A stretch of DNA of 32,436 bases from Halanaerobium saccharolyticum (GTDB taxonomy: Bacteria > Bacillota > Halanaerobiia > Halanaerobiales > Halanaerobiaceae): positions 1 through 32,436 of the forward strand of contig NZ_QLME01000009.1 of the NCBI RefSeq assembly GCF_003259895.1. Direction: 5' to 3'. The position numbers and the translations under genes were made by a program. Below are positions 17,888 to 28,217 of the stretch, piece after piece. Below the pieces are notes generated by a model that had not been told where the DNA came from, ran no database searches, and was given only the letters and a program-made list of their open reading frames with translations. Each line of letters begins with the position of its first letter. Position 1 is the stretch's first letter.

Positions 17888-17923
17888 GTACCAGGTACAA
17901 AAACGCGTTTTTGTACCTGGTAC
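17888..17923. repeat. Perfect 36-bp palindrome upstream of gltB
   Basis: Each base from 17888 to 17905 pairs with its partner from 17923 back to 17906, with no spacer. The structure is nested: GTACCAGGTAC, AAAAA, CGCG, TTTTT, GTACCTGGTAC. Each outer 11-mer is itself a near palindrome. It lies 48 bases before the gltB start. It could be a dispersed REP-like element or a regulatory site or terminator. Confidence 0.9.
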
Positions 17924-17971: not shown

Positions 17972-20900
17972 ATGACTTTTACAAAAATGCCTGAGAAGCA
18001 GGGATTGTACAGTCCAGAATTTGAACATGATGCCTGTGGTATGGGATTTGTGAGCCATATTAAAGGTCAGAAGTCTCATCAGATAGTCGAACAGGCTTTA
18101 GAAGTGCTTGTCAATTTAAGTCATCGGGGAGCAAGTGGTAGTGAGGAGAACACCGGTGATGGAGCCGGGATACTTCTTCAGCTTCCTGACAGCTTTTTAA
18201 GACAGAAACTGAAGTCAGAAAAAGTAAGTCTGCCGGAACAGGGAAATTATGGAACAGGAATGGTTTTTCTGCCCCGGGAGGAAGAGAAGAGAAAAGGAGT
18301 TAAAGAAATTGTAGAGGCTGCTGTAGAGGTTGAGGGACAGCAGGTTATCGCCTGGCGGGATGTTCCGGTTAATCCGGACGGTCTTGGCGATTCAGCCCTG
18401 GAAGTTATGCCCCATTTTTCGCAAATTTTTATTGAGAAGTCTAAAGAAGTAGAGCAGGGAATAGATTTTGAACGCAGGTTATATTTGATTCGCAAAAAAA
18501 TTGAAAATAAAATTCGTAATTCTGAATATCAGGGAGAACTGTATTTTGCTTCCCTTTCCAGCCGTACTTTAGTTTATAAAGGAATGCTGACTCCGGGGCA
18601 GCTGGAAGGATTTTTCCCCGATTTATCGCAGCCGGAGCTGAAGTCAGCTATTGCTCTTGTTCATTCACGTTTTAGCACCAATACTTTTCCCAGCTGGGAG
18701 AGAGCACATCCGAACCGCTACTTGATTCACAATGGTGAGATTAATACTATGCTCGGCAACCAGAACTGGATGCGGGCCCGGGAAGGAATATTTGAAAGTG
18801 AAATTTTTGGAGATGAGTTAAAAGATCTGCTGCCAGTTATCGCCCGGGAAGGCAGTGACTCGGCTCGTTTTGATAATGTGCTGGAATTTTTAACTTTAAA
18901 TGGTCGTTCACTGGCCCATTCAATGATGATGATGATACCAGAGCCCTGGGAGCACAACGAGCAGATGGAAAAAAAGAAGCGGGACTTTTATCATTATCAC
19001 AGTACTCTAATGGAAGCCTGGGATGGCCCTGCTGCAATGGCCTTTACCGATGGGACTCAGGTGGGAGCAGTGCTGGACCGTAATGGTCTGCGGCCTTCGA
19101 GATATTATATTACAGATGATGATTTACTGATCCTATCTTCTGAGGTTGGAGTCCTGGAGCTCCCCGAAGAAAAAGTTATCAGCAAACAGCGCCTGGAACC
19201 GGGTAAGATGCTGCTTTTAGATACAGAAAAAGGCAGGATCATCAATGATCAGGAGTTAAAGGCAGATATTGCTTCAGCTGAGCCTTATGGTAAGTGGCTT
19301 GAGGACGAGCTGCTGAAATTGAAAGATCTAAAAGCTGATTCTGAAAGTTCTCAAACTGCGGCTGTGGAAACTGAAAATAAAACCCTAGGAAAAGAGGATT
19401 TGCAGTCCTCCAGTCTGGTTAAGCTGCAGAAGAGTTTTGGCTACAGCTATGAGGAATTACAGAAGCTTTTAATTCCGATGGCCAGAGATGGAGTTGATCC
19501 AATCGGTTCAATGGGTAATGATGCTTCGCTGGCAGTTTTATCTGACCAGCCACAGCTTTTATATAACTATTTTAAGCAGCGCTTTGCCCAGGTAACCAAT
19601 CCTCCAATTGATTCGATTAGAGAAAAGCTGATTACAGCAGCCAATACATTTTTGGGTTCAGAAGGCAATTTACTGCAGCCCGATTCCAAAAGCTGCCGCC
19701 AGCTGGAGTTAGAACACCCTCTTTTAAGAAATGAAGAGCTGGAGCTAATTAAAAATCTAGACCGAGAAGGATTTAAAACAGCGACTCTGGATATTGTCTT
19801 CGAAAAAGAGGAAGAATGCGGCAGTCTGGCTGCCAGAATGGAAGAATTATGTGCTGAAGCAGAAGAATTAATTGCTGAAGATGTTAATATGCTAATTCTT
19901 TCTGATCGAGGAGTTAATAACAAAAAAGTTGCCGTACCTGCACTTCTGGCAGTCAGCGGCCTGCACCATTATTTAATCAAAAAAGGCTTAAGAACAGAGG
20001 TCAGCCTGGTATTAGAATCAGGTGAGCCAAAAGAAGTTCATCATTTTTCAGTTTTAATTGGTTATGGAGCCGATGCAGTAAATCCTTATCTGGCCTATGC
20101 AACTTTAGAGGATCTAGTTGAAGAAGGTCATCTGGAGATGCCGAAGGAAACTGCTGTTCAGAAATATATTAAGGCAGCTGTTAAAGGTGTGGTCAAGGTT
20201 ATGGCCAAAATGGGAATCTCTACAGTGCAGAGCTACAGGGGGGCCCAGATTTTTGAAGCAGTTGGAATTTCGGAAGCAGTAATTGATAAATATTTCTGCC
20301 GTACCGCTTCGAGGATCGGTGGTATTGGAATAGATGAAATTGAAAAAGAAAGCATTATGCGTCATGACAGTGCTTTTAAAGGGGTTAAAGTAGAAAAAGA
20401 AACACTTGATTCCGGCGGCAGTTTCAGCTGGCGTAAAGATGGAGAAGAACATCTTTATGATCCGGAGACTATTTATCTGCTGCAGCGGGCAGTAAGAGAA
20501 AATAATTATGATTTATTTAAAGAATATAGAAATAAGTTGAATGATCAGAGTTCCAGAATGCTAACTCTGCGCGGACTTTTAGAACCACAATATCAGCCGG
20601 AACCTATTCCTTTAGAGGAAGTTGAACCGGCGGCAGAGATAATGAAAAGGTTTAAAACTGGAGCTATGTCCTATGGTTCGATCAGTCAGGAAGCACATGA
20701 AGCTCTGGCAGTCGCAATGAATAGAATTGGTGGTAAGAGCAACACCGGTGAGGGGGGAGAAAATCCGGAACGCTTTACCCGGGATCCAAATGGAGATCTG
20801 CGCAGCAGTGCAATTAAACAGGTTGCATCAGGCCGTTTTGGAGTTAATTCTCACTATCTGGCAAATGCTCAAGAAATTCAGATCAAGATGGCCCAGGGAG

Positions 20901-24759: not shown

Positions 24760-25101
24760 ATGAGCAAAAAGTATCCCCTTTTATTGAAGGACAGCAAAAA
24801 AGAGGAAAAGGCAGAACGGAGACAGGAAGCTCTAACTAAAGCAAAAAAAGCAGCTAAAGTACTAAAAGAAAAATATAAGGCAGAAAGGGTAATACTCTTC
24901 GGCTCTGTTTTAGATGAAGATAGGTTTTACCTGCGCTCAGATGTAGATCTGGCTGTTTTTGGACTTAAAGATGAGCTGTTTTATAAAGCTTATGCAGAAG
25001 TAATGAATATTATAAGTGGATTTGAAGTTGATCTCCTTGATTATAAAGAATGCAGAGATTCATTTAAAAAAGAAATTAAAGAGCAGGGGGTAGAATTATG
25101 A
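24760..25101 (+). CDS. mntA: MntA-type minimal nucleotidyltransferase antitoxin
   Basis: A 113-aa nucleotidyltransferase of the MNT family. In type VII systems it blocks the HepT toxin by adding AMP units to it. The polymerase-beta-like active site is LFGSV (G48, S49) with DVD (D61, D63); the spacing between GS and DxD is 11 residues rather than the usual 10. A lysine/glutamate-rich helical arm (residues 9-42) precedes the fold. GGGTGAG lies six bases before the ATG. Its stop overlaps the HepT start in ATGA, the coupling typical for this pair. Confidence 0.85.
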   Translation: MSKKYPLLLKDSKKEEKAERRQEALTKAKKAAKVLKEKYKAERVILFGSVLDEDRFYLRSDVDLAVFGLKDELFYKAYAEVMNIISGFEVDLLDYKECRDSFKKEIKEQGVEL

Positions 25102-25577
25102 CTGAAAAAGGTATTTTAACTTTTATTGCCAAGGTTGAAGATGAGCTGACTGAATTAGACCAGCTAAAAGATAGGATTCAAACAGTCTGGAAAGAATATA
25201 AAACAAATGGTGATGAATTTTACCTGGATAGTGTTGCTCTAAATTTACACGGTCTTTATTCAGGTTTTGAGAAAATATTTTTAGAAGTGGCAAGAGAAAT
25301 AGATGAAAATATACCAGAAGGTTCGTCCTGGCACAAAGAACTCCTGGATCAAATGGCTTTAAATATTAAAAATTTAAGACCAGCTGTCATTTCTAAAGAG
25401 AGTAGAAACATACTTGATGAATACAGAGCATTTAGACATGTAGTTAGAAATGTTTATGCCCACAAATATTCAGCTAAAAAAATTGCTATCTTACTGGAAA
25501 ATTTTCCTGCCGACTACAAAAGAGTCAGAAGAGAAATTGTGAGTTTTCTTCAGTTTCTGGAAGCGGATGTAGAATAA
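25098..25577 (+). CDS. hepT: HepT-type HEPN ribonuclease toxin
   Basis: A 159-aa all-helical HEPN-domain protein. The family toxin is an RNase. The catalytic signature Rx4HxY is intact as RNVYAHKY (R117, H122, Y124); in characterised pairs, the tyrosine of this motif is the residue AMPylated by MntA. The N-terminal helices hold the conserved SVALNLHGLYSGFEKIF stretch. It overlaps mntA by four bases. Because the catalytic and target residues are all present, the pair looks functional, unlike the PIN pair at 4865-5465. Confidence 0.85.
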   Translation: MTEKGILTFIAKVEDELTELDQLKDRIQTVWKEYKTNGDEFYLDSVALNLHGLYSGFEKIFLEVAREIDENIPEGSSWHKELLDQMALNIKNLRPAVISKESRNILDEYRAFRHVVRNVYAHKYSAKKIAILLENFPADYKRVRREIVSFLQFLEADVE

Positions 25578-25629: not shown

Positions 25630-25670
25630 AGGAATAATAACTAAAAAGAGAGAGTTTGAGGGGGCAAATT

Positions 25671-26618
25671 ATGAAACAAAAACAGGATATTTTACTCGAA
25701 AGTGGGACCGGGGAGTTAGAAATTTTAAAATTTATTGTTGATGATAGTTCATATGCTATAAATGTCTTAAAAGTAAGAGAGATTTTGCGGATTGAAAAGG
25801 GTGATATTAAAAAGCTGCCCGAAAAGTCTGATGTGATACTGGGAATGACCAATATTCGCGGTGATGTAATAATGATCGTTAACTTAAGTTCCTATTTGAA
25901 TTCAGAGCTGATAGAAAACGATGGAGTAATAATGGCTATTCTGGCCGAGTTTAATGCAACCAAGATCTTATTTGCGGTTGACAATGTAGTTGGTATTGAC
26001 CGTATTGGCTGGGATGATATTCAGCCACCTGATCGGATGATGGGAGAATTAGTTAATGGTGTTATAAAATCAGATACTGATAAAGATTTAATTAACTTTT
26101 TAAATTTCGAAAAGATTTTAGAAGATTTACAGCCTGAGCTGGGTAATAAAGTTGATGTTAAACCGGAAGCTTCTGCTGATTTGAGAGCGAGAAGAAAGAA
26201 TAAAACTCTGGCTTTAGCAGATGATTCTCCAACAACCAGAAATATGATTAAGGATACCTTAGTGGAAGCAGGTTATCAGGATTTTAAAATTTTTAGTGAT
26301 GGCAGACAGCTTTTAGATCATCTTTTAGAAATCAAGGAAAAATATCCAGAGGACAGTGTTTTGGACCATGTACAGGGTATTATAACCGATATTGAGATGC
26401 CCAATATGGATGGACATACACTTATTAGAAAGATTCATGAGGATCGTTACTTAAGAAAACTGCCGACAGTTATCTTCTCTTCTTTAATTAGTGAAGATCT
26501 GCTGCATAAGGGTAAGGATGTTGGAGCAGATGCTCAGATAACTAAACCCGAACTGGATAAACTTGTGGGAGTAGTTGATCAGCTGGTTAAGGCTGTGAAG
26601 CCGATAGCCGATTATTAA
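25671..26618 (+). CDS. cheV: Chemotaxis coupling protein CheV (CheW plus receiver)
   Basis: A 315-aa protein linking chemoreceptors to the CheA kinase and helping adaptation. Residues 10-155 are a CheW-like domain (INVLKVREILRI, LGMTNIRGDVIMIVNL). Residues 178-310 are a receiver with acidic pocket D184/D185 and phosphoacceptor D240 (GIITDIEMPNMDG), and the later T/S and K positions are in FSSLISEDL and ITKPEL. ATG 25671 follows GAGGGGG by five or six bases; the TTG at 25656 overlaps that site. It is a single-gene unit. Its stop codon runs directly into a 204-bp inverted-repeat element. Confidence 0.93.
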   Translation: MKQKQDILLESGTGELEILKFIVDDSSYAINVLKVREILRIEKGDIKKLPEKSDVILGMTNIRGDVIMIVNLSSYLNSELIENDGVIMAILAEFNATKILFAVDNVVGIDRIGWDDIQPPDRMMGELVNGVIKSDTDKDLINFLNFEKILEDLQPELGNKVDVKPEASADLRARRKNKTLALADDSPTTRNMIKDTLVEAGYQDFKIFSDGRQLLDHLLEIKEKYPEDSVLDHVQGIITDIEMPNMDGHTLIRKIHEDRYLRKLPTVIFSSLISEDLLHKGKDVGADAQITKPELDKLVGVVDQLVKAVKPIADY

Positions 26619-26820
26619 TAAAAGCTATAAAGTTAAACTTCAAATAAAACTTAGAAATAACTAAAATTCAAAAAAGGCTTAAATCAAGCTACCTGCCGTA
26701 TTGAGAATCCTGTCTCGGCGGCAGTTCAGAACTTCGTGTTCTTCAGTCTGATTTAAGCATTTTTCTCATTAAGTTATTTTAGCTAATTTTTCTAAGTCAT
26801 TTAACTTTATAGCTTTTATT
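26617..26820. repeat. 204-bp imperfect inverted-repeat element after cheV
   Basis: The ends, 26617-26637 and 26800-26820, are a 21-bp perfect inverted repeat. Further inward, ACTTAGAAA (26649-26657) pairs with 26789-26797, and CTAAAAT (26661-26667) with 26776-26782. The centre is a branched hairpin head (26671-26764). The left end starts inside the cheV stop codon. No target-site duplication is evident outside the ends. It could be a MITE-like element, a large terminator or a structured RNA. The gap 26619-27074 holds this element plus the alcohol dehydrogenase promoter and no gene. Confidence 0.85.
26671..26764 (+). other. Three-way-junction RNA-like head with T run (terminator or small RNA)
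   Basis: Outer stem GCTTAAATCA (26677-26686) / TGATTTAAGC (26749-26758), extended by AAAAA/TTTTT. Inside are two hairpins: CTGCCG (26693-26698) / CGGCAG (26719-26724), topped by GAGA/TCTC (26703-26706/26713-26716), and AGAAC (26728-26732) / GTTCT (26738-26742) closing on TTCGT. GC content is raised relative to flanks. The TTTTT after the outer stem could end cheV transcripts. Confidence 0.7.
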
Positions 26821-26985
26821 TGGTGGATGATACTAATTTAGCTTTTATCTTTATCAAGTTATTTATCAAAAAATATTAAGTCACTCAATTTCTTATATTA
26901 AAGAGATTATATTTTTTAAAATATAAAGTGAATAATTTCACTACTGTTCTGATTTATTTTAAAATTTAAACTTATTAGGATTTCA

Positions 26986-27074: not shown

Positions 27075-28217
27075 ATGAACTCATTTGTTATACCACCTGA
27101 GATTCACCATAGTCAGGATTCTCTTTCTTATTTAGAAAATCTGGAAGGTGAAAAAGCGGTTTTAGTTACTGGCGGTAGTTCTATGAAACGCTTTGGTTTT
27201 TTAGACCAGGCTGTAGAACTTTTAGAAAAAGCCGGAATTGAATCTAAGATTATTGATGGAGTTGAGCCAAATCCTTCTGTTAAAACAGTTAATAAAGGGA
27301 AAAACTTAATGCTCGATTTTGAACCGGACTGGGTTATTGCCATTGGTGGAGGTTCTGCTCTGGATGCAGCCAAAATCATGTGGGCTTTTTATGAACATCC
27401 AGATTTAGAGTTTGAAGAGATTATAGAAGTTGGTTCTATACCGGAATTAAGAAATAAGGCTAAATTTATTGCTATTCCTTCAACAAGTGGAACAGCTTCT
27501 GAGATTACAGCCTTTTCTGTAATTACTGATCTGGAAAAGAAAATTAAATATCCAATTGTTTCACCAGAGATTGTACCTGATCTAGCAATTGTTGATCCCC
27601 AGATTCCGGCTACTATGCCTTCTCATATTACTGCTAATACAGGAATGGATGTTATGGCCCATGCAGTAGAGGCTTTTGTTTCAACTGCAGCCACAGATTA
27701 TACTGATCCTCTGGCTCTAAAAGCAATTAAACTTGTCTTTGATTACTTACCAGAGGCTGTAGCTGATGGAGATAATTTAGAAGCCAGAGAAAAAATGCAT
27801 AATGCTTCTACTCTGGCAGGAATGGCTTTTTCTAATGCTTCTTTAGGTATTGTCCATAGTTTAGCTCATAAAATAGGAGGAGAATTCCATGTAACTCATG
27901 GTCTGGCAAATGCAATCTTATTACCATATGTAATAGATTTTAATTATCAGGCAGCAGAGAATAAGTTTAAAGAAATTGAAGAATATCTGGGAATTAATGA
28001 CTTAAAAGCTGAAGTCAAAAACTTAAATCAAAAATTAGATATTAAAGCTAACTTTAAAGAAATAGACTGGCTGGATTATACTGAAGAGGATTTTGAAGAA
28101 GTTCTGGCAAGAATGTCTCAGAATGCTTTAGAAGATCCCTGTACCCTAACTAATCCAGAGGAACCCGAAGTTGAAGACTTAAAAGAAATCTATAAAAAAG
28201 CATATTATGGTGAATAA
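27075..28217 (+). CDS. Iron-containing alcohol dehydrogenase (group III)
   Basis: A 380-aa NAD(P)-dependent alcohol dehydrogenase, interconverting an aldehyde and an alcohol, likely reoxidising NAD(P)H in fermentation. Visible: cofactor loop AIGGGSALDAAK (G91-G93), PSTSGTASEIT near 135-146, and metal ligands D192 and H196 (GMDVMAHAVEA), H261 (GIVHSLAHKIGG) and H275 (VTHGLANAILLP). Length is normal. GGAGATGG precedes the ATG. The gene is monocistronic, with a strong promoter, a Rex-like operator and an intrinsic terminator. Ethanol or butanol specificity cannot be told from sequence. Confidence 0.93.
   Translation: MNSFVIPPEIHHSQDSLSYLENLEGEKAVLVTGGSSMKRFGFLDQAVELLEKAGIESKIIDGVEPNPSVKTVNKGKNLMLDFEPDWVIAIGGGSALDAAKIMWAFYEHPDLEFEEIIEVGSIPELRNKAKFIAIPSTSGTASEITAFSVITDLEKKIKYPIVSPEIVPDLAIVDPQIPATMPSHITANTGMDVMAHAVEAFVSTAATDYTDPLALKAIKLVFDYLPEAVADGDNLEAREKMHNASTLAGMAFSNASLGIVHSLAHKIGGEFHVTHGLANAILLPYVIDFNYQAAENKFKEIEEYLGINDLKAEVKNLNQKLDIKANFKEIDWLDYTEEDFEEVLARMSQNALEDPCTLTNPEEPEVEDLKEIYKKAYYGE

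Follow-up and report, generated by a model that had tools for sequence, protein, structure and literature searches.

A palindromic element with a divergent TwoAYGGAY core behind cheV of Halanaerobium saccharolyticum and its probable mobile origin

The first 32,436 nucleotides of a Halanaerobium saccharolyticum contig (NZ_QLME01000009.1, here referred to as the window) carry a large palindrome directly behind cheV. This raises the question of what such a structure is and how it came to lie there. The original prediction had left three answers open, namely a MITE, a hairpin recognised by a transposase or an undescribed structured RNA at which cheV transcripts end, with a chance fold of AT-rich sequence as the fallback. 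Based on our analysis, the feature is probably an ancient and fixed copy of a MITE-like, non-autonomous mobile palindrome with a divergent TwoAYGGAY centre.

Structure of the palindromic element

The perfect terminal inverted repeat of 21 bp that had been predicted was confirmed, as were the further paired arms, the three-way-junction head with its TTCGT loop and the T run (Table 1). The head is formed by two hairpins. The left arm starts within the cheV stop codon, as predicted, since the TAA occupies positions 26616-26618. The element contains no ORF of at least 90 aa, and no target duplication was visible by eye at 26616/26821. Tandem GA pairs are found in the stem: a GA/GA site lies beside the CTT..TTAG helix, and the second site is Watson-Crick paired in the window copy.

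Folded as RNA, the element reached a minimum free energy of -63.1 kcal/mol compared with a mean of -29.1 kcal/mol for shuffled sequences (z -8.96), and none of 200 shuffles was as low. The opposite strand, folded as DNA, gave a z of -8.86. Furthermore, inverted repeats of at least 16 bp within 320 nt were absent from all 50 Markov surrogates of the window, while the real window contained two, the ends of the element and a palindrome at 17888-17923. The latter is a perfect 36-bp palindrome (GTACCAGGTACAAAAACGCGTTTTTGTACCTGGTAC) located just 5' of a 1544-aa ORF at 17972 and represents a possible operator or terminator.

The arms are indeed AT-rich, as a chance fold would have it. However, the z-score of -8.96 together with the homologues and the covariation described below refutes this reading, to which we give practically no weight.

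Table 1. Features of the element and its neighbourhood (positions in the window)
Feature	Position	Strand	Basis
Whole palindromic element	26617-26820	.	fold z -8.96; homologues behind cheV in G001, G003, G009
Left terminal arm, 21 bp	26617-26637	+	perfect inverted repeat; starts within cheV stop codon
Right terminal arm, 21 bp	26800-26820	+	perfect inverted repeat
Conserved core, divergent TwoAYGGAY fold (GGA-loop strand)	26653-26781	-	R2 match 113.6 bits, E 3.9e-24, with the window copy itself among the 71 sequences used to build R2; RF01731 homology via relatives
Junction hairpin 1	26728-26742	-	loop ACGAA on - (TTCGT on +)
Junction hairpin 2	26693-26724	-	loop AGGAT on -
T run behind core stem	26760-26764	+	sequence; possible cheV transcript end
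Right arm of a probable second, broken element	26837-26893	.	by eye, likeness to the two broken copies at the corresponding place in G009
cheV, upstream neighbour	25656-26618	+	Pfam CheW and Response_reg
Iron-containing alcohol dehydrogenase (adh), downstream neighbour	27075-28217	+	Pfam Fe-ADH

Copies, covariation and relation to TwoAYGGAY RNA

BLAST searches of the own genome and of relatives revealed the same element behind cheV in three further genomes (G001, G003 and G009), along with partial matches at other places. In all 12 copies first collected the core was 129-131 nt long, and 31 of 40 predicted pairs showed double changes. With a covariance model (R1), 11 copies were detected in the own genome, and 17 of 61 relatives carried the element. 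Five candidates (L005, L010, L012, L013 and L017) were excluded, as they looked like ordinary terminators or AT-rich chance matches. The family is present in 10 of 30 genera of its class. A second model, R2, built solely from copies of the class, detected it in 32 of 398 genomes of the phylum; the core is approximately 130 nt in size and most matches spanned about 127-133 nt. A pattern match in Pleionea (L152) was not found by R2 and was rejected. BLAST gave no match for the window element among plasmids, nor for an element from G039 among plasmids and phages.

The many dispersed copies are those expected of a mobile element. At the same time, copies in syntenic position carry compensatory changes, as expected of a conserved fold: the fold was kept when four cheV copies were aligned alone, and 15 pairs showed changes on both sides. 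In an alignment of 67 distinct copies, both-side changes were present in 45 of 47 core pairs, and 90% of cells were paired compared with 65% after shuffling and 32-45% for slid structures; the alignment had been fitted to the model and its structure finished by hand, which biases these counts towards the structure, yet the margin remains large. Unpaired features were conserved as well: these are an AT bulge, an internal loop of GA/GA and pentaloops of the type A[GC]GAN. Template switching could also imitate covariation by making the arms alike, but conserved mismatches of this kind would then tend to disappear.

TwoAYGGAY has been described as a candidate RNA (Rfam RF01731; Weinberg 2010, PMC2864571; Gardner and Eldai, PMC4333381). 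A direct Rfam search of the window gave no match, and no RF01731 score above the gathering cut-off was obtained in the window or in the own genome. Two relatives found by R2 (L130 and L131) exceeded the RF01731 gathering score at the R2 position. Across 19 genomes, RF01731 gave 55 matches in G174, one in G039 and none in the own genome. The G039 copy (L150), which belongs to the same repeat as the other G039 elements, passed the gathering score with 51.7 bits and reached 127.6 bits with R2. R2 was built without RF01731-positive copies and finds them, and both models match the same places.

Judged by these sequence comparisons, the minus-strand core is homologous to TwoAYGGAY, with a three-way junction of common descent. 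Both share the three-way junction, two GGA-type hairpins, the tandem GA in the stem and the length of the core. The window copy differs in remaining undetected by RF01731, in its loops AGGAU and ACGAA in place of the two AYGGAY loops of the definition, and in its longer palindromic arms. Since Rfam does not detect it and its loops are altered, we would rather regard it as a variant than as a strict member. As to the structured RNA considered earlier, the conserved fold was borne out, but the element can be called undescribed only in part.

Mobility of related elements

Evidence for mobility comes from relatives. In G039 one arm end matched 551 and 563 times with at most 2 mismatches (reversed control 0), corresponding to approximately 550 elements. 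Flanking duplications exceeded expectation in three genomes, with boundaries left free by a few bases in data and shuffles alike. Duplications of at least 6 bp flanked 34 of 64 elements examined in G039 (2.2 expected; 6-8 bp long) and 7 of 9 in G109 (1.4 expected; ~8 bp); in Halanaerobium sp. MA284 (G013), 43 of 49 elements showed duplications of at least 8 bp, mostly 9-10 bp (1.4 expected). The end sequences differ among G039, MA284 and G109; the palindrome ends in G039, MA284 and G174 are GATTAWACTGCAAAAAG, GGACTTTCCCC and CAGACTGTAGACAAA. Of the answers considered originally, the mobile element is thus supported by the dispersed copies and by the target duplications in relatives.

Short derivatives in G039 (L103-L109, 83-200 bp) are palindromic and retain both ends. 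Those of 83-140 bp lack the full core, and several show apparent duplications. This hints that the core is dispensable for movement, unless the derivatives shrank after insertion. Within Halanaerobium no shared end sequence is proven, because the outer arms differ among its copies; here, the dispersed loci and one empty site argue for movement.

A different situation was found in G174. Among 30 RF01731 copies, 28 were flanked on either side by a copy of the same terminator-like hairpin, directly abutting the ends of the element; if there is a T run, it follows the hairpin on the right. In L224 the flanking hairpins differ by compensating changes (CGGCCTCC..GGAGGCC compared with CGGTCTCC..GGAGACC), so that both hairpins seem to be kept. 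We infer that these duplications arose at insertion. Group IIC introns target terminators. The G174 elements resemble them in their insertion beside terminator hairpins but are distinguished by the whole hairpin on both sides and by the lack of any Rfam intron match in the scanned loci.

Like MITEs, the elements are short, lack an ORF, have inverted terminal arms, occur in many copies and show target duplications in relatives. Unlike MITEs, they are palindromic over their full length and share a conserved folded core among families with different ends. We slightly favour the wider view that TwoAYGGAY forms the core of several mobile families across Bacillota, which have different ends and probably different transposases; one of these families would target intrinsic terminators and duplicate the hairpin as a whole. 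In the literature searched, neither a mobile TwoAYGGAY nor an element that duplicates terminators was described. If correct, the orphan Rfam family would have to be re-read, from a stationary regulatory RNA to the core of mobile palindromes, and a candidate CsrA RNA would sit in multi-copy mobile palindromes with up to ~550 copies per genome. Two testable questions follow: why a single core of fixed length is present in elements with different ends, and how terminators serve as landing sites with the whole hairpin left on both sides. It would also be a warning that covariation and many copies need not imply a regulatory RNA.

ISL3 elements were considered as mobilisers. The G109 elements have ends starting with GGCTCT and duplications of ~8 bp, as do the ISL3 elements of G039 and G174. 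However, an intact ISL3 element whose ends match was not found in G109, and in G039 and G174 the palindromes end differently from the local ISL3 elements; ISL3 was rejected accordingly. The search for an autonomous partner, which covered ISL3 in G109, G039 and G174, thus found no element with matching ends, and this speaks against a mobile palindrome, as does the missing target duplication of the window copy. As a separate observation, made at L244, L249, L254, L258, L260 and L262, G039 carries more than 40 ISL3-family transposase copies, most with an open frame of 408 codons, with 8-bp duplications and the ends GGCTCTCCGTCAAATGTTGTG.

Function of the core and fate of the cheV terminator

Genes next to the copies were predicted with a crude ORF procedure. 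With regard to the strand on which the core may act, 9 of the 11 copies in the own genome had both neighbours running against the GGA strand, and most lie close behind a stop codon. The same orientation was seen 13 times versus 3 in other genomes of the phylum and 3 times versus 6 in G174; these counts are not independent trials, because copies in one genome may share history. Outside the genus there were 56 GU and 27 AC mismatches; inside it the excess of GU over AC was just 37 to 29, a further point against the preferred mobile palindrome with a functional core. Together, orientation and mismatches do not point to a single transcribed strand for all families.

In 2014 TwoAYGGAY was proposed to be a CsrA-binding RNA, via a match to the CsrA motif (PMC4333381). 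The core could accordingly be a regulatory sponge whose copies persist as the host gains from the binding sites. Of 45 copies from other genera, 38 have GGA in both loops, and the excess of GU over AC there fits a functional GGA strand. Within one and the same phylum sample, a CsrA match was present in 28 of 32 carriers versus 257 of 366 non-carriers. This excess is weak and confounded by kinship, and four carriers had no CsrA match. Moreover, hairpin 1 lacks GGA in 17 of 26 copies of the own genus including the window copy, which has GGA in one of its two loops, and most copies of the genus are antisense to both neighbours, so that transcription of the GGA strand would require a separate promoter. 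The target duplications require mobility regardless. CsrA binding of the core is therefore weakly supported, least in this genus, and we consider a sponge that explains the copies unlikely.

Alternatively, the core may work as DNA, as a cruciform or single-stranded hairpin recognised by a transposase or repair protein, with its conservation serving transposition. The perfect palindromes, the fixed core length and the target duplications would fit. However, the same core occurs in elements with different ends and duplication lengths and thus probably with different transposases; the G039 derivatives that lack the full core keep both ends, several with apparent duplications, though they may have arisen by deletion after insertion; and the GU over AC asymmetry outside the genus is more consistent with one functional strand. 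We regard this as a less likely alternative.

The cheV locus itself was compared among species. The order is cheV, element, adh in the own genome. In the related species G011 it is cheV, a plain terminator (AGCCCACATTGAGTGGGCTTTTTT) and adh, and the element is absent. G001, G003, G004 and G009 carry the element behind cheV with downstream sequences different from that of the own genome, so that five species in all have the element at this site. In G007, the cheV site holds a short hairpin and a T run, a possible remnant. Behind cheV of G009 (L008, 1308-1720), one complete and two broken copies lie in a row, as if inserted into or beside earlier ones.

The position at the stop codon and the presence in five species would also suit a stationary 3'-end RNA or a large cheV terminator with no mobile history. 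This is contradicted by dispersed copies at unrelated loci, by the target duplications in relatives and by the lack of the element between the same two genes in G011; we consider it very unlikely.

For the preferred mobile palindrome, we propose that a transposase from another element would move it by its ends and that landing at a gene end would cost the host little. The window copy would stand at the site of a former terminator, whose place it took, and may now end cheV transcripts by its long stem and T run. Such a role is plausible: a long stem is present with TTTTT behind the core stem, but this T run is short and lies inside the outer stem. A simple scan, unsuited to so large a hairpin, found no ordinary terminator between cheV and adh. 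The least certain steps concern the core, which might act in single-stranded, folded form, probably as RNA from the GGA strand, and be read by a host protein at its two GGA-type loops.

Just upstream of cheV, at 24760-25577, overlapping genes for a nucleotidyltransferase (Polbeta) and a HepT-like protein were found, which are likely to form an MNT-HepT toxin-antitoxin pair.
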